Below, one piece after another: positions 20,277 to 60,182 of a DNA stretch of 64,000 nucleotides (its first letter is position 1; every line of letters starts with the position of its first letter). The position numbers and the translations under genes were made by a program. Source of the stretch: Bacteroides sp. (GTDB taxonomy: Bacteria > Bacillota > Clostridia > Lachnospirales > Lachnospiraceae); NCBI GenBank assembly GCA_023666705.1, contig JAMPBO010000001.1, positions 62,001 through 126,000 of the forward strand, read 5' to 3'. A model generated the notes under the pieces. It was not told the origin of the DNA, ran no database searches, and worked only from the letters and a program-made list of their open reading frames with translations.

Positions 20277-21035
20277 TCAGGACAAAAATTTTACAATAAA
20301 GGTGGATGGAAATATTTTTGCTGCAATCCGGTACAGCTTCATCGTTATCCCATACACGGAAAAATGTGAATTATGGTAGGCGTCCCGCAATGCCTTGGCA
20401 ACCACCTTTTTGGGGGCAGCCTTAAACATTTTCTTAAACAGCTTTGTCTGTGTATATTTTTCTGCAACCTCAAAAAATTCTGTTTTGACAGGTCCCGGAC
20501 ATACTGCAGTAACGCAAATTCCCCTGTAAGCAAGCTCCCTGCCCAGTGCCGTGGAAAAACTTTTTACATATGCCTTTGTTGCCGCATAAACCGCAAATGA
20601 TGGCTGTGGTGCAAATGCAGCCGAGGATGCAAGATTTATAATATTTGCCCTTCCCTCACGCATGTATGGCAGTGAAATATGTGTGATTTCTGTAAGCCCA
20701 GTGACATTGATATCACACATGCCACAGTTGTCCTTTTCACTGATATCCTCAAAATGTCCTATCATGCCATAGCCTGCAGCATTTACCAGCACTCTTATGG
20801 ACGGCTTTTTTAACTCCAGAAGCTTTTTATATTCCGCAAGCTGTTCTTGATCCGTTATGTCACAGGTTATGGGCTGTATGGTAACACTTTTTATATTGTT
20901 TTTAAGTGCGGTAAGCCGCTCTGTTCTTCTTGCCAGCACCCATATTTCATCAATTGTTTTATATTTTTCGGAAATCTGCTTTACAAATTCCCTTCCAAGT
21001 CCTGATGACGCTCCTGTTACAACTGCAATATTCAT
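20277..21035 (-). CDS. Short-chain dehydrogenase/reductase (SDR)
   Basis: This 252-residue protein is a classical SDR oxidoreductase: the NAD(P)-binding TGASSGLG motif is at about residues 7-14, NAAGYG follows the fourth strand, and the catalytic Ser-Tyr-Lys triad appears as ASSAA..YAATKAY. The C-terminal part is rich in basic and hydrophobic residues, which could indicate membrane association. The ATG at 21033-21035 follows GGAGG and overlaps the stop codon of the upstream methyltransferase by one base (TAATG), implying coupled translation. The substrate is unknown. Confidence 0.92.
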   Translation of the reverse strand: MNIAVVTGASSGLGREFVKQISEKYKTIDEIWVLARRTERLTALKNNIKSVTIQPITCDITDQEQLAEYKKLLELKKPSIRVLVNAAGYGMIGHFEDISEKDNCGMCDINVTGLTEITHISLPYMREGRANIINLASSAAFAPQPSFAVYAATKAYVKSFSTALGRELAYRGICVTAVCPGPVKTEFFEVAEKYTQTKLFKKMFKAAPKKVVAKALRDAYHNSHFSVYGITMKLYRIAAKIFPSTFIVKFLS

Positions 21036-22402
21036 TATAGTAACCTCCATCCGGGTAAATATTTATTTTTCAGTATACCCTTATTCAGCTTTCCCCAACC
21101 CAAAGGATATCCGTCAACCAGAACAAGTGTCCAGCCGTCCACTCCCCCGGCTTCTATTGTCTCGCCCTTCAGGTATTTTATTACTCTGATATCCTCATGG
21201 GACAAGTCGATTTCATTATCAAAATCACCCTTCGTAAGTGTCATGGCAAGGGATTGGCTTGGTTCAAATCTGTTTTTCTTATTTTCCCCCAGGAAAAGTC
21301 CGCACCGCAATATTCTAAGTCCCTTAACATCAGGAAAGCTATCAGTAATATAGTAAAGCTTATCGTCTGACATTTCAATTCCTGCCACATCAATTTTATT
21401 ACCAAGCCGTTCAAAAAATGCAAGTGCCTCCGCACTTAGCTTCGCTTTTTTCCGCCTATAGCTTCCGAAGTTTCCACGGCTGTCACAGGTGCCATCCTTT
21501 CTTGCAAGGCACACGAAGTGTCCTTCTCCCTCTACTTTGTGCGGCCATATCCTTGCACATTTTTTAAGTGCGTCATTTCCGGACAGTGACCACTCCGGAT
21601 GTCCGTCACCAAAAAGCCCGTACTTGTCAAATTCGCATAAGGAAAGCCGCTCGTCGAGAGAAAGCATATATTCCACGGACTGTTCATTTTCCAAAGGTGA
21701 AAATGTGCAGGTAGAATATACGATTGTTCCCCCCGGCTTTAACATATCAACAACATACTTTAAAATGTCCCTCTGTATGTCAACAAACACTTGGTTTTGA
21801 TTGTTTTCCCATGCTGTAATCATGGACTGGGACTTTCGGAACATGCCCTCTCCCGAACATGGTGCGTCAATCAGTATTTTGTCAAAATACTCATGAAACC
21901 GTTTGCCAAGCCGATACGGTGCCTCACTGATAATCAGGGAGTTTACCACACCAAACACCTCCAGATTTTTAAGAAGTGCCTTTGCTCTTGATGCACTGAT
22001 ATCATTTGATACCAGTATGCCTGTACCGTTCAGCTTTGCGGCAAGCTCCGTCGATTTTCCCCCAGGTGCTGCACAAAGATCAAGCACTCTGTCACCATCA
22101 TTTACAGGCAAAACAGACGCAGGCGTCATGGCACTTGGTTCCTGAATATAATACAGACCTGCGTAATAGTATGGATGCCTGGATGGCTTATCCACCGTTT
22201 CATCATAATAAAATCCGTTTTCACACCACGGAACTTTTTTTAAATGAAACGGATTTATTTTCAGGAATTCCTCAACTGATATTTTAAGCGTGTTGATTCG
22301 TATGCCGTGATGCATCGGTTCATCCAGACATTTTTTGTATTCCTCAAACTCCTCCTTTAAGAGCTTTCTCATATTTTCCTCATAGCTTTTCGGTAAATCC
22401 AT
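21035..22402 (-). CDS. RsmF/NOL1-NOP2-Sun family rRNA (cytosine-5) methyltransferase
   Basis: This 455-residue protein has the RsmB/RsmF methyltransferase core: the SAM motif LDLCAAPGGKST, motif IV DAPCSGEGMF and motif VI YSTCTFSP with the two catalytic cysteines. After about residue 300 comes a C-terminal extension like the RsmF N1/PUA-type RNA-binding domain. It would methylate a cytosine in 16S rRNA. The ribosome site is weak, and the gene begins 8 bp after hflX. Confidence 0.93.
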   Translation of the reverse strand: MDLPKSYEENMRKLLKEEFEEYKKCLDEPMHHGIRINTLKISVEEFLKINPFHLKKVPWCENGFYYDETVDKPSRHPYYYAGLYYIQEPSAMTPASVLPVNDGDRVLDLCAAPGGKSTELAAKLNGTGILVSNDISASRAKALLKNLEVFGVVNSLIISEAPYRLGKRFHEYFDKILIDAPCSGEGMFRKSQSMITAWENNQNQVFVDIQRDILKYVVDMLKPGGTIVYSTCTFSPLENEQSVEYMLSLDERLSLCEFDKYGLFGDGHPEWSLSGNDALKKCARIWPHKVEGEGHFVCLARKDGTCDSRGNFGSYRRKKAKLSAEALAFFERLGNKIDVAGIEMSDDKLYYITDSFPDVKGLRILRCGLFLGENKKNRFEPSQSLAMTLTKGDFDNEIDLSHEDIRVIKYLKGETIEAGGVDGWTLVLVDGYPLGWGKLNKGILKNKYLPGWRLL

Positions 22403-22410
22403 GTATATCT

Positions 22411-23640
22411 TTATATATCAAGGCTTTTGTCAGCATATGCCCGGATATATATTCCATCCTCTCTGTAATCTTCCTCAAGTATGCTTCCCGTTTTACGGAT
22501 TTTATTGAGTATGCCTGCCTCAGAATACGGTACAAGCTTCTCGATATAATTCCTGCTCTTATTGACCTCGTCCGTTATGGCATCAATCAATTCCTCAAAT
22601 CCCATCTCTTTTTTTGCGGCAATATATACGACATGGTCTGCCTTAAAATCCTTAATAACGGGAATTGTTTCCACCTTGTCAATCTTGTTAAATGCCGTAA
22701 TGACAGGCTTATTTTCAACCCCAAGACCGCCAAGTGTCTCATATACCGTGGCAATGTGGGTATCTGCACATGGACTTGATATGTCAACCACATGCAAAAT
22801 AATATCGGAATACTTTGCCTCCTCTAAGGTAGAACGAAACGCATTAATCAGGTGATGGGGCAGCTTCTTAATAAATCCTACCGTATCCGTTATAATGATT
22901 TCCTGACCGTTTGCGAGCTTATAACCTCTTGACGTAGGGTCAAGGGTTGCAAACAGCATATCCTCCTCAAGAACACCTGCAAGGGTCAGCTTATTTAAAA
23001 GTGTAGATTTGCCTGCATTCGTATAACCCACAATCGATACGATTGGAAGGTTGCCCGACATACGCTGCTTCCGCATAACCTCCCTGTGCTGCTTGACATC
23101 CTCAAGCTCCTTTTGGAGCTGTCCGATTCTGTCACGGATAATTCTTCTGTCAATCTCAAGCTTTTTTTCTCCCGGTCCTCTTGTTCCGATACCGCCGCCA
23201 AGACGTGAAAGTGAATTTCTCATGCCAATCAGCCTTGAGGAACGATACTTAAGCTGAGCAAGCTCCACCTGAATAATACCCTCACGGGTCGTGGCTCTCT
23301 TTGCAAATATATCAAGAATTACCATAGTTCTGTCCATGATTTTTGTGTCCAAAAATTCTTCTAAGTTTTTCATTTGCATCGGGCTTAGCTCATCGTCGGA
23401 CACAATGCCTGACGCATCAAGCTCTGCAACAAGTGCTTTAAGCTCTTCCGTCTTTCCGGAACCTATGTAGGTCGCCTTATCCACAGCTTCCTTTTTTTGA
23501 ATCAGTCTGCCAACGACAACGGCACCTGCCGTTTTTACAAGATCTTCCAATTCATCTAAATTGGCATCAATATCCTCGCCCTTATCCAAATCAACGGCGA
23601 TGAGTATTACCTTTTCCATTTCCTTGTCTGTATTATACAT
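22411..23640 (-). CDS. hflX: Ribosome-associated GTPase HflX
   Basis: HflX (409 residues) binds the 50S subunit and can split stalled or hibernating ribosomes. The N-terminal HflX domain with a helical bundle contains GGGIGTRGPGEKKLE; the GTPase domain has GYTNAGKST (G1), DTVGF (G3) and NKID (G4). It precedes an rRNA methyltransferase gene, a translation-related context. The ATG at 23640 follows a GGTG site. Confidence 0.96.
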   Translation of the reverse strand: MYNTDKEMEKVILIAVDLDKGEDIDANLDELEDLVKTAGAVVVGRLIQKKEAVDKATYIGSGKTEELKALVAELDASGIVSDDELSPMQMKNLEEFLDTKIMDRTMVILDIFAKRATTREGIIQVELAQLKYRSSRLIGMRNSLSRLGGGIGTRGPGEKKLEIDRRIIRDRIGQLQKELEDVKQHREVMRKQRMSGNLPIVSIVGYTNAGKSTLLNKLTLAGVLEEDMLFATLDPTSRGYKLANGQEIIITDTVGFIKKLPHHLINAFRSTLEEAKYSDIILHVVDISSPCADTHIATVYETLGGLGVENKPVITAFNKIDKVETIPVIKDFKADHVVYIAAKKEMGFEELIDAITDEVNKSRNYIEKLVPYSEAGILNKIRKTGSILEEDYREDGIYIRAYADKSLDI

Positions 23641-25938: not shown

Positions 25939-28482
25939 TTACAAATCATACTCGTCACGAAGACGATTTTGTTCATCCAAAATTATCTGCTTTAGCTCCC
26001 TCGACGATAAAACCGTACAATTTTGTCCTCTTGTTATTTGCTGTATCAAGCCGTCAGAGCTTGCAACTGTTATATTATAACACGTTTGGTTGGAATTAGT
26101 AAACTTTTCTATATATTGGTCTGCCGTTTCCCCTTCTTTTGTATAAATAACCGTTATTTCATCCGTCGTATTTTCGGAGCCGGGGTTATTTTTTAATTTA
26201 TACCCATCAAATACCACAATTATACCGTAATCCGTCATGCCTTTATAATTTGCCAGTATGGAAAGAAGTCTGTCCTTTGCTGAATCCATATTAAGATCTG
26301 CAAGCTCCTTTAAATCCTCCCATGCAAAAATGACATTGTAGCCATCAACGATAAGCAGCTTCGGCAGCCTTGGCTGCGGCTTTCCAAAATGAGTTTTATA
26401 TTCAGGTGCATGAATCTTTTTCTTCTGGTAATTTCGTTTTGCATTTTGGTTGGAATATGCAGTTTTATTAATTATCTCATCAATTTCATCCACGCCGATG
26501 GAATAATCAAAGCTGCTTCGTTCCTTCCTGTATTCGGTACCATAATCCGTTCTTTCACCATTTGGGCTGTCATCCGTTACATGCATGTATTGTTCAACCT
26601 CGTACCACGGAACAATAAAGCCTGCCCCATGTGCACAAAATACAGAGGAAGACATGTTATGCAAATCCGCCTCAGGGTCATAGCCGCACGTTTCTATGAT
26701 TTCATTTTGGTTATGACATTCAAAATAGCCGCTTGGCATACAGGAAATATTTCCAAGCCCTCTGGTGTATTCACTTATATTTTCCTGATATTCCCTGAGG
26801 GTAATAACAGGACCGCTTCCCCTGATAACTGCCGTATCGCCATCTAAAGCAGGATCCGTCAGGGAGCACCTTAACAAATCAAGGTCCGTCATTGCCTTGC
26901 CAAGTAAATCTGACGGAAGGGTAAGCTCAAAGTCATAGTAAGGCTCCAAAAGTACAGAGCTTGCCTTCATCAAGCCCTGCCTGACTGCCCTGTATGCAGC
27001 CTGACGAAAATCGCCTCCTACCGTATGTTTATCATGAGCCCTGCCGTTTATCAGGGTTATCTTGACATCCGTAAGGGGTGAGCCAGTGAGTACGCCCCTG
27101 TGAAGCTTTCCTCGCAGGCAGGAAATAATATGCTTCTGCCAATTTGCAGACAAAATATCCGTACTGCAGTTTACATCAAAGGAGATACCGCTTCCCCGTT
27201 CTCCCGGTTCAAGCAAAACATGTACCTCCGCATAATGCCGCAGTGGTTCAAAGTGCCCCACTCCCACTACAGCTTCGGCAATTGTCTCCTTGTACTCGAT
27301 TTGTCCCATATCAAAGTCTGGCAAAAAGCCAAACCTTTTTTCGACGAGTGCCGCGATAATTTCAAGCTGGACAAGCCCCATTATTTTTATGGAAATTTGT
27401 TTATCTTTTTCATCCCATGAAACATCCAGTTCCGGAATTTCCTCTCCGAGGCTCACGATATCAGGATAAATTTTTCCTGCATCCACCCCGTCAGGAACAA
27501 GCATATTATATTTTAACACAGGTTCAATGACCGGAAGCTTTAATGCACCGCCGTCATCACCTAACAGCTCACCTGCCCTTGTATGCTCTAAGCCAAGCAC
27601 CGTGCATATACTCCCTGCATCAGCGTACCCTGCCGTCTCATATTTTTCACCGGAATAAAACCGTATCTGCGACACCTTATCCTCCCCTATGATATCGCGT
27701 ACCTGTAAGTATCCGCCTGTTATTTTCATATGGGTCAGGCGGTTCTTTTTTTCGTCTCTTGCTATTTTATATACAGTTGCAGAAAAATTACTTCCATACT
27801 GCGGAGCCTCGGAATATTTGCTGATTCCTGCAAGAAGTGTCTCAACATTTACAAGCTTTAACGCTGAGCCAAAATATGTGGGAAAAATTTTCCTATTTTT
27901 TATCAGTGCCGTTATATCCGCATCTGAAATGGAAGCTCCGTTTAAATATTTCTCAAGAAGCTGTTCGTCGGACATTGCCATGCTTTCATATGTATCTGTT
28001 GTAAATGCTTCGCTTGAAAAGTCGATGCATTCATCACAAAGGGAAGCCCTGACCGCTTCAAAAACCTGCTCCTTTGTCACATCAGGCATGTCCATTTTGT
28101 TTACATAAATAAATGTGGGAATATTGTAAACCTTGAGAAGCCTCCACAGCGTCCTTGTGTGGCTTTGCACGCCCTCAGACCCGCTGATAACCAGAATTGC
28201 ATAGTCAAGAACCTGAAGTGTCCGCTCCATCTCAGCACCAAAATCCACATGTCCCGGTGTATCCAACAAAACATATTCCACATCCATGTATGTGAACCTT
28301 GCCTGCTTGGAGAATACGGTTATCCCCCGTTTTCTCTCAATGTCTTCATTATCTAAAAATGTATTTCTTTTATCTACCCTGCCAAATGTCTTTAAAACAC
28401 CTGCACTGTAAAGAATCGCCTCAGACAGTGTGGTTTTTCCCGCATCCACATGAGCCAAAATTCCGATACATATTTTTTTCAT
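25939..28482 (-). CDS. TetM/EF-G-like ribosomal GTPase fused to a C-terminal NYN (YacP/Rae1-type) RNase domain
   Basis: This 847-residue protein joins two domains. Residues about 1-660 are an EF-G-like GTPase of the ribosomal-protection class, with AHVDAGKTT (G1), RGIT (G2), DTPGH (G3) and NKMD (G4), followed by EF-G domains II-V; the domain IV loop reads HTVGGDFRQ. After a basic linker (about 670-700), residues about 705-847 form a YacP-type NYN nuclease domain (LLIVDGYNVI, VVFDGYKL, VASSDGLIQ with conserved acidic residues). Stand-alone YacP (Rae1) of Bacillus cuts mRNA in the ribosomal A site. I infer a factor that enters the A site and cuts mRNA there; drug resistance is less likely. Such fusions are annotated in other Lachnospiraceae but their role is not established to my knowledge. 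Confidence 0.92.
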   Translation of the reverse strand: MKKICIGILAHVDAGKTTLSEAILYSAGVLKTFGRVDKRNTFLDNEDIERKRGITVFSKQARFTYMDVEYVLLDTPGHVDFGAEMERTLQVLDYAILVISGSEGVQSHTRTLWRLLKVYNIPTFIYVNKMDMPDVTKEQVFEAVRASLCDECIDFSSEAFTTDTYESMAMSDEQLLEKYLNGASISDADITALIKNRKIFPTYFGSALKLVNVETLLAGISKYSEAPQYGSNFSATVYKIARDEKKNRLTHMKITGGYLQVRDIIGEDKVSQIRFYSGEKYETAGYADAGSICTVLGLEHTRAGELLGDDGGALKLPVIEPVLKYNMLVPDGVDAGKIYPDIVSLGEEIPELDVSWDEKDKQISIKIMGLVQLEIIAALVEKRFGFLPDFDMGQIEYKETIAEAVVGVGHFEPLRHYAEVHVLLEPGERGSGISFDVNCSTDILSANWQKHIISCLRGKLHRGVLTGSPLTDVKITLINGRAHDKHTVGGDFRQAAYRAVRQGLMKASSVLLEPYYDFELTLPSDLLGKAMTDLDLLRCSLTDPALDGDTAVIRGSGPVITLREYQENISEYTRGLGNISCMPSGYFECHNQNEIIETCGYDPEADLHNMSSSVFCAHGAGFIVPWYEVEQYMHVTDDSPNGERTDYGTEYRKERSSFDYSIGVDEIDEIINKTAYSNQNAKRNYQKKKIHAPEYKTHFGKPQPRLPKLLIVDGYNVIFAWEDLKELADLNMDSAKDRLLSILANYKGMTDYGIIVVFDGYKLKNNPGSENTTDEITVIYTKEGETADQYIEKFTNSNQTCYNITVASSDGLIQQITRGQNCTVLSSRELKQIILDEQNRLRDEYDL

Positions 28483-29204: not shown

Positions 29205-30854
29205 TTATAAAACACCCCATCCGATTTCAGGATTCGGATATGACGTATAACCCGGTAGCGGTCCTGCTTCCCGTATGAGATTTGCCTTAACCTTTTCTCC
29301 GTACATAAACGGGTCGTTGCCCTGTACAATTCCCCACTCCATAAGCTTTGCTGCCCTTGCCGACACATACGGCGTGGCAAAGGAAGTTCCCGATACGGTA
29401 GCGTAACCGCCGCCTGGACTTGCCACCCGTATATTGACACCTGGTGCCGCAAGGTCAGGCTTTACCTGATTGTCGATGGAATAACCCCTGCCTGAAAACG
29501 GTGCATAGGCAAGCAATCGTTCATCGTAGGCACCTACGCTTATGATACTTCTTGCCGAAGCAGGTATGGTCATTGTCGTAAACCTTGACGGTGTTATAAA
29601 TCTTACTTCTGATGAGGTCCCTTCGGAAACGGGAAGCCATAAATCAACCCTGCCGTTTAATATGGATTTTGGGTTAAAGGAAACCGTCCATATCCCCGCT
29701 TCAATGTAATCCCGCTTCGGTGCAATTGACAGATACGTTTCCTGATTTTTATTGTAGGGTGTGGGATAACCGTTTATAACATTGATATCCATATTAAGCA
29801 GATTGTAGCTCATGACCTCATTATATGAGTTAAACGGTCCAAGCACAGTCCCTCCCGGTGTGGTAATGAAAATATCAACCACATCAACAAAGTCTCTCCA
29901 TATTTGCAAATTGATGCCAAGCTCATATGGATTAACCTGAAAATCCACATACTGCCACGCTGTATTTCCGAGCATGATTTGTGCATGTCTGGCACTCCTG
30001 CCCTCATTTCCCATACCCGTAACGAGGCTGATTTTGGCAGTGTCAGCAACACTGTCTATATATTCTTCAATCATGGAATTGGATCCATGGTCACCGTAAT
30101 TATTTCCGAAGCTTAAGTTAATGACCATCGGCAAGTCGTATCTCCTGGAAAAGCTTACGGCATAATCAATTGCAAGCATTAAGGACACGGTATTCGGATA
30201 CCCTGACACATTGCTGTTATCCAGTTTAATGGCAAGGAGCCCTGCATCAGGAACATCCCTTGCAACTATGCCTGCCACGCCCGTCCCATGTCCGGAATAA
30301 TCGTATGTAGGCAGTTGTTCCCCTGTTTTTAGTGCAGTGTTTATTTCTTCTCTTGTAAAAAACCTGCCAACACCATATTGATTGGGATTTTCCTCACTAT
30401 ATGGCAGTGTCTGGTCCCAAATGCCGACAAGCCTTGTCGTGCCGTCATTATTGATGAATGCTCCTGATTTGTAATCAATCCCCGAATCAATGACTGCAAC
30501 AACGACCCCCTGCCCTAAAAGCCCATCTATGCTTAAAATGGACTCTGCCGCCGTAACCTCAAGATAAATACTCTTTGGCTTTTCTATAAAAATAACGGAC
30601 GGAACACGGGTAAGCTGTTCTATATTTTCACTTCGGATGCGGATAATTGCATAATTATTTTGAAGAATTGTATAGGAAAAGCCAACGGATTGGCTTACCT
30701 CCTCCAAATTACCGGTATATCTTATAATGAGCTGCCATTCATCCAAAGAACTGTTGTAGCCCACATCCAAGTCCATGGAATTTCTTCTTTCCTCCTGTGG
30801 TACGGCAAGCGATAAATTAAGCTCTGTTCCCAGCTTCGCTGGATCATAAACCAT
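29205..30854 (-). CDS. Csp-type S8 family subtilisin-like serine protease
   Basis: This 549-residue protease has no signal peptide. An N-terminal pro-region (about 25-100) precedes the S8 domain with the catalytic triad Asp in VAVIDSGID (about 122), His in SGHGTGVAGI (about 188) and Ser in SGTSFATP (about 491); the oxyanion Asn lies in GMGNEG. A beta-barrel-like insertion sits between the His and Ser blocks. This layout matches the clostridial Csp proteases, which process germination-related spore proteins. A role in germination is inference; other family members act elsewhere. Confidence 0.9.
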   Translation of the reverse strand: MVYDPAKLGTELNLSLAVPQEERRNSMDLDVGYNSSLDEWQLIIRYTGNLEEVSQSVGFSYTILQNNYAIIRIRSENIEQLTRVPSVIFIEKPKSIYLEVTAAESILSIDGLLGQGVVVAVIDSGIDYKSGAFINNDGTTRLVGIWDQTLPYSEENPNQYGVGRFFTREEINTALKTGEQLPTYDYSGHGTGVAGIVARDVPDAGLLAIKLDNSNVSGYPNTVSLMLAIDYAVSFSRRYDLPMVINLSFGNNYGDHGSNSMIEEYIDSVADTAKISLVTGMGNEGRSARHAQIMLGNTAWQYVDFQVNPYELGINLQIWRDFVDVVDIFITTPGGTVLGPFNSYNEVMSYNLLNMDINVINGYPTPYNKNQETYLSIAPKRDYIEAGIWTVSFNPKSILNGRVDLWLPVSEGTSSEVRFITPSRFTTMTIPASARSIISVGAYDERLLAYAPFSGRGYSIDNQVKPDLAAPGVNIRVASPGGGYATVSGTSFATPYVSARAAKLMEWGIVQGNDPFMYGEKVKANLIREAGPLPGYTSYPNPEIGWGVL

Positions 30855-59839: not shown

Positions 59840-60182
59840 TGGAGCTGGCGGGAATCGAACCCGCGTCCGAAAATTCTTCCATTATACTTTCTCCCATCAC
59901 AGTCTATATATATTTATTCCCTCAGCAAAGTGCCTATAGACAGGCACGTCACATCGGTAGCTTCATAAATTTTCCCTGACCGCAAAGCTTAAGTCAAAGA
60001 GTTTCCCACGATTTTGATGCCGGTATCCTAAGCTGTGGGGTGCCTAAGACCGACAGCTGCCACTAGGCAGCGTACGCGTAATTTTCGTCTGCGTTTATAT
60101 TTAATTTCTAAGTTTTTAGGTGGTCCTAGTCCACCGATGGCTTATATAATTTCTAAATCCCCGTCGAAACCAGTACAACCCC
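59840..60182 (-). ncRNA. ssrA: Transfer-messenger RNA (ssrA)
   Basis: The 343-base minus-strand RNA rescues stalled ribosomes together with SmpB. The tRNA-like ends pair (GGGGTTG with CAGCTCC), the 5' part has GTACTGGTTTCGACGGGG and the 3' part a T arm GGGTTCGATTCCC. The tag frame reads Ala-Asp-Glu-Asn-Tyr-Ala-Tyr-Ala-Ala then TAG. No CCA is encoded. The 5' end could be one base further out. A TATAAA at about 60190-60195 may serve as a local promoter. Confidence 0.95.

Follow-up and report, generated by a model that had tools for sequence, protein, structure and literature searches.

Translational GTPases of the TetM/EF-G type bind to the ribosome on its A-site side. Few bacterial nucleases are known to cleave mRNA inside translating ribosomes; Rae1 (YacP) is one of them. 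In B. subtilis it cleaves mRNA in the A site (reviewed in PMC12320835). Atkinson 2015 (BMC Genomics 16:78, PMC4342817) described ten Clostridiales with Tet proteins that carry an added YacP-like NYN RNase domain, and suggested for them an RNase-based mechanism of tetracycline resistance. The architecture was therefore already published in 2015, and the protein analysed here, which is encoded in a stretch of 64,000 nucleotides (the window), belongs to the Atkinson set. Our search of the literature found no experiments on any fused member.

Architecture of the fusion protein

The gene is one open reading frame without internal stop, with its ATG at 28482 and its stop codon at 25939-25941 (Table 1). 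According to our analysis its product joins a TetM/EF-G-like GTPase to a Rae1/YacP NYN domain through a linker of 72 residues, most of them disordered. Pfam matches span residues 4-223 (GTP_EFTU), 393-508 (EFG_IV), 510-592 (EFG_C) and 710-844 (NYN_YacP, PF05991), the last with 142 bits against a Pfam cut-off of 24.6. The nearest PDB entries by sequence are TetO (2.8e-74) and TetM (4.8e-72) for the GTPase half (residues 1-634), and B. subtilis YacP 5mq8/5mq9 (7e-20) for the NYN half. An AlphaFold model made with 74 homologues, confident in the GTPase and the NYN, has a mean pLDDT of 85.5 and matches EF-G structures over about 680 columns in Foldseek. A preliminary description had read this locus as a single 847-residue frame with a GTPase and a YacP-like NYN, and the frame, Pfam and PDB matches confirm it far above chance.

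The pLDDT falls below 50 at residues 641-663 and 675-702 of the linker, which is highly charged with a net charge near neutral (+1 in the window, median +2); the linker had earlier been called basic, which it is locally but not overall. Its short predicted helix is absent from unfused homologues and could be a binding motif.

Table 1. Features of the fusion gene, in window coordinates
Feature	Coordinates	Strand	Basis
Whole fusion gene, 847 aa and stop codon	25939..28482	-	ORF, Pfam, full-length homologues
GTPase (G) domain, residues 1-223	27814..28482	-	GTP_EFTU 3.9e-48; motif conservation
EF-G-type domain IV, residues 393-508	26959..27306	-	EFG_IV 2.8e-17
Domain IV tip loop, residues 480-492, GRAHDKHTVGGDF	27007..27045	-	Alignments; family form GxxHxKHTxGGDF
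Domain V, residues 510-592	26707..26955	-	EFG_C 1.2e-13
GTPase C-terminal extension, residues 593-634, SVFC...W...MH	26581..26706	-	Conserved in alignments
Linker, residues 635-706	26365..26580	-	pLDDT and composition
Short predicted linker helix, residues 664-676, E666 and I670 near-invariant	26455..26493	-	AlphaFold model and alignment
NYN (Rae1/YacP) nuclease domain, residues 707-847	25942..26364	-	NYN_YacP 2e-41; 5mq8/5mq9 matches
D713, active-site acid (B. subtilis D7)	26344..26346	-	46/46 free, 115/115 fused
D759, active-site acid (B. subtilis D53)	26206..26208	-	46/46 free, 115/115 fused
D788, TAD-motif active-site acid	26119..26121	-	Invariant in fused alignments
D810, SSD/TSD-motif active-site acid (B. 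subtilis D104)	26053..26055	-	46/46 free, 115/115 fused

The nuclease half as a replacement of free YacP

Of 146 genomes from the window's order that were searched for NYN_YacP, 123 have it, each with one genuine copy, which is fused in 49 genomes and free in 74; none has both. The fused frames measure about 850-980 aa (one is a 523-aa fragment) and free YacP 170-272 aa. Within the window's own family 14 of 15 genomes carry the fusion, and in the window's genome the fused copy is the only NYN_YacP. Named carriers include Blautia, Anaerostipes butyraticus, Mediterraneibacter massiliensis, Clostridium punense, Desulfosporosinus acididurans and Fusibacter. MutS2 was found in all 20 genomes examined, which makes its distribution uninformative.

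Free yacP lies immediately after rlmB in 18 of 20 and in 40 of 42 loci, usually with sigH next. The rlmB region was read in 15 fusion genomes and no yacP was found beside rlmB in any of them; rlmB is followed by sigH in nine, the window's genome included (cysS-mrnC-rlmB-sigH, L237), and in one of these nine a 60-aa frame intervenes. The NYN has left its ancestral slot, rlmB-yacP-sigH. A phylogeny of fused and stand-alone YacP, which the preliminary description had proposed as a check, unites the fused NYNs and one free YacP (G485, from the window's family) in one clade with an SH-aLRT of 96, inside the free YacPs of the order, and the fused domains thus branch from the order's own YacPs. What had been called Rae1/YacP-like is Rae1/YacP by descent, with its catalytic acids intact, and the fusion is the lineage's own Rae1, which replaces free YacP one-for-one.

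In G485 (L111, L134) the GTPase and YacP are encoded by two separate genes, and yacP lies away from rlmB, near genes that, judged by eye, resemble gatCAB/aspS; this genome may represent the pre-fusion state or a later split.

The four aspartates listed in Table 1 are invariant in 74 aligned fused homologues, and all of the 46 free and 115 fused NYNs compared have D7, N10, D53, T79 and D104 (B. subtilis numbering); the comparison of the NYN acids with Rae1, also proposed earlier, reveals no loss of any of the four. Other positions are relaxed. R118, invariant in free Rae1, is retained in 39 of the 115 fused NYNs and is V in the window copy, while E162 and R165 of the C-terminal segment, conserved in free Rae1, are often lost in fused NYNs. 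The window NYN is devoid of the entire segment (E162, R165, R166), with a tail of 37 aa versus 64-86 in free YacP. The B. subtilis reference sequence in this comparison is confirmed up to residue 166 except at position 164, where the 5mq9 entry has L in place of the wild-type W. The segment matters in B. subtilis, since R166P in its Rae1 is a loss of function (PMC6613710), and because the window copy has lost both R118 and this segment, its activity or specificity may differ from those of Rae1. Measured against L141, a relative with 80% identity, the NYN evolves more slowly than any other large module of the window protein (dN 0.073, dS 0.63, a high dS that makes the ratios rough); it is under purifying selection and is not decaying.

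Loss of the C-terminal segment in the window copy could also shift the substrate, and the NYN family was first proposed for rRNA and tRNA maturation (Anantharaman and Aravind 2006, according to the passage citing it in PMC4342817), from which one might suppose that the NYN cuts rRNA or tRNA instead of mRNA while the GTPase serves as a ribosome anchor. We regard this as highly improbable, because the known substrates of Rae1, from which the NYN descends and which it replaces, are mRNAs.

The GTPase half and tetracycline protection

The G-domain motifs AHVDAGKTT, RGIT, DTPGH and NKMD are invariant in the alignments. The window protein scores below both the NCBIfam tet_protect model (419 bits, cut-off 775) and the EF-G equivalog (262 bits, cut-off 659); its GTPase is about 29% identical to TetM, and a separate EF-G gene is present besides the fusion gene. 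At the tip of domain IV nearly the whole family has GxxHxKHTxGGDF, compared with YYSPVSTPADF in TetM/TetO/TetW and FFSPASTPADF in TetB(P). The window protein has HDKHTVGGDF where Tet proteins carry SPVST, with neither YSPVST nor an equivalent of Pro509, the residue that sits in the drug site in TetM (PMC8161019).

A careful GTPase tree was built after F_L166, a long-branch artefact in an earlier tree, had been replaced. All fused proteins group there in a single clade (100/99), together with a NYN-less plasmid copy from L. salivarius. The unfused protein of G448 is sister to this clade (99/99), which is nested inside a larger unfused family (100/99). TetM, TetO, TetW and TetB(P) make a separate clade with a Bacillales TetB(P)-like group (95/92). 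By this tree, the GTPase family is the sister of the Tet proteins and falls outside the Tet clade: the earlier term TetM/EF-G-like fits the domains, but the protein is not a true TetM and belongs to a sister subfamily whose domain IV tip differs.

Most unfused homologues end within about 10 residues past the position of fused residue 634. The L. salivarius UCC118 copy on pMP118 (L221, 3986-5920), which adjoins an opposite-strand rpsN (S14) gene, stops right after the GTPase extension; as it is also nested in the fused clade, the NYN appears to have been lost there. The simplest reading of the trees is a single fusion with later spread and one NYN loss in L. salivarius. Unfused GTPase and free YacP show no association (the GTPase is present in 10 of 40 YacP genomes), which gives no hint that the two were partners before they were fused, and a Rosetta-stone argument from their co-occurrence was dropped. 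Since the GTPase occurs without YacP in G342 and G392 and without the NYN in L. salivarius, it must have a function of its own, possibly A-site clearance.

It would be logical to ask whether the fusion protects from tetracycline, an A-site drug, with the GTPase clearing the drug and the NYN disposing of the blocked mRNA or acting on rRNA, as Atkinson 2015 proposed. The Tet proteins are indeed the nearest characterised families to the GTPase, and there are genomes without YacP that keep an unfused member. The B. cereus group has a chromosomal TetM-like protein that gives tetracycline protection (PMC5209696), and the kin of this protein may be a Bacillales-rich TetB(P)-like group (L225, L230-L233, L235, L236, L254) with a third form of the loop, HHVxHTHPLDF, one member of which carries a tetB(P) prediction with just 38% identity. 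Because of this protein and its candidate kin the absence of YSPVST is compatible with protection and the loop may be dispensable; an argument that a protein without it gives no protection was softened. Still, the place of the GTPase outside the Tet clade, its score below the tet_protect cut-off and its different loop speak against such a role, and so do the near-universal, chromosomal occurrence of the gene in its family and the fact that the fusion holds the place of a housekeeping gene. We therefore consider a protection factor quite unlikely. Usable tetracycline susceptibility data for Lachnospiraceae were not found in the literature.

The gene is chromosomal, and members of the family were met on 2 of 72,556 plasmid records, both large replicons, for which reason a mobile resistance gene was rejected. 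Over 108 fused loci no conserved neighbourhood was found: the most frequent adjacent gene family, generic ABC ATPases, reaches at most 17 loci, and thioredoxin is near the fusion in four. The preliminary description, which pointed to thioredoxin and not to resistance genes nearby, was correct in that the gene does not resemble an acquired resistance determinant, but the vicinity of thioredoxin is not conserved. Thioredoxin, HflX and RsmF-like neighbours were accordingly rejected as a functional clue. Downstream in the window, on the same strand, lie genes of HflX, a ribosome-splitting GTPase (22411-23640, minus; kept only in the two closest relatives), and of an RsmF-like rRNA methyltransferase (21035-22402, minus; seen in four loci). 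A subtilisin-like protease at 29205-30854 (minus) resembles the spore germination protease CspBA.

Proposed action and relation to known systems

The composition, catalytic acids, descent, replacement, single fused lineage and selection, all computed here, suggest that the lineage's Rae1/YacP was relocated and joined once, by a flexible linker, to the C-terminus of a translational GTPase of a Tet-sister family. The product probably cuts mRNA on ribosomes with the help of its GTPase. Docking on the ribosome, which we infer together with nuclease activity, the order of events and the purpose of the fusion, is supported by the fold and motifs that the GTPase has in common with EF-G and TetM. The GTPase half would dock as EF-G and TetM do, the tether would hold the nuclease at a high local concentration, and the NYN would cut mRNA on stalled or slow ribosomes after the GTPase leaves the A site, which would initiate mRNA decay and tmRNA rescue. 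The window has a tmRNA gene at 59840-60182 (minus) with the tag ADENYAYAA; its product would be the expected partner for rescue once mRNA has been cut in the A site.

The interpretation in the preliminary description is partly supported; delivery of the nuclease to the A site, for rescue or silencing of ribosomes, is a hypothesis. Simultaneous presence of GTPase and nuclease in that site is doubtful, because domain IV of TetM-class factors and Rae1 would need the same space there; as the two cannot share the site, an A-site cut would have to be sequential or use another route of access. The relaxation of Rae1 residues after the fusion is compatible with the GTPase having taken over the binding role. 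We may even suggest, tentatively and at somewhat less than even chances, a GTP-driven A-site nuclease, in which a blocked A site is recognised or cleared by the GTPase, which on leaving hands the emptied site to the tethered Rae1, whose ribosome-binding C-terminus was given up as the GTPase does that job. If true, a large group of Clostridia would have in it their standing factor for mRNA surveillance.

Alternatively the halves may have separate jobs on or near the ribosome and be joined only for co-expression. The long disordered linker, the GTPases that occur alone, with or without YacP, and the loss of the NYN in L. salivarius agree with such a passive tether. However, many families have retained the fusion, with a linker motif that is conserved, and positions that do not vary in free Rae1 are relaxed in fused copies, a hint that a role passed to the GTPase. 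This makes a mere tether unlikely in our opinion.

What is new is that the fusion replaced the free nuclease across a bacterial family, with one NYN_YacP per genome, fused or free; that yacP was lost from its ancestral slot, that the fused NYNs descend from YacPs of the order and that the fused GTPases derive, as a single clade, from unfused homologues; and that a chromosomal gene without conserved neighbours encodes a GTPase of a Tet-sister family without the YSPVST loop. The fusion and its relaxed Rae1 residues amount to a natural experiment that makes the question of Rae1 recruitment testable, and point to R118 and the C-terminal E162/R165 region as possible contacts with the ribosome. Fusions are also annotated as tetracycline resistance genes in database records, which may inflate resistance counts in gut commensals; the fused protein of Agathobacter rectalis (L222, 5974-8775), recorded as a TetM/TetW/TetO/TetS family tetracycline resistance protein, is likely such a misannotation.

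Compared with known systems, the window protein shares its architecture, a Tet-like GTPase with a C-terminal YacP-like NYN in Clostridiales, with the fusions of Atkinson 2015, which were filed as Tet resistance proteins with a gained domain, whereas here they emerge as a Rae1 replacement outside the Tet clade. With B. subtilis Rae1/YacP (5mq8/5mq9) its NYN has in common the fold, all active-site acids and descent; that Rae1, however, is a free 170-aa protein at the rlmB-sigH locus and has retained R118 and the C-terminal E162/R165 region, both lost in the window copy. The five-domain translational GTPase is common to TetM, TetO, TetW and TetB(P), from which the window's family differs as a sister clade with the tip HxKHTxGGDF, its own C-terminal extension, a non-mobile gene and the added NYN. 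The unfused GTPases of the family from Clostridia and Bacilli (L131-L139, L224, L226-L228 and the L. salivarius pMP118 copy, itself annotated as a Tet protein) have the same domain IV tip in nearly all cases and the SVFC...W...MH C-terminus in most, but neither linker nor NYN.
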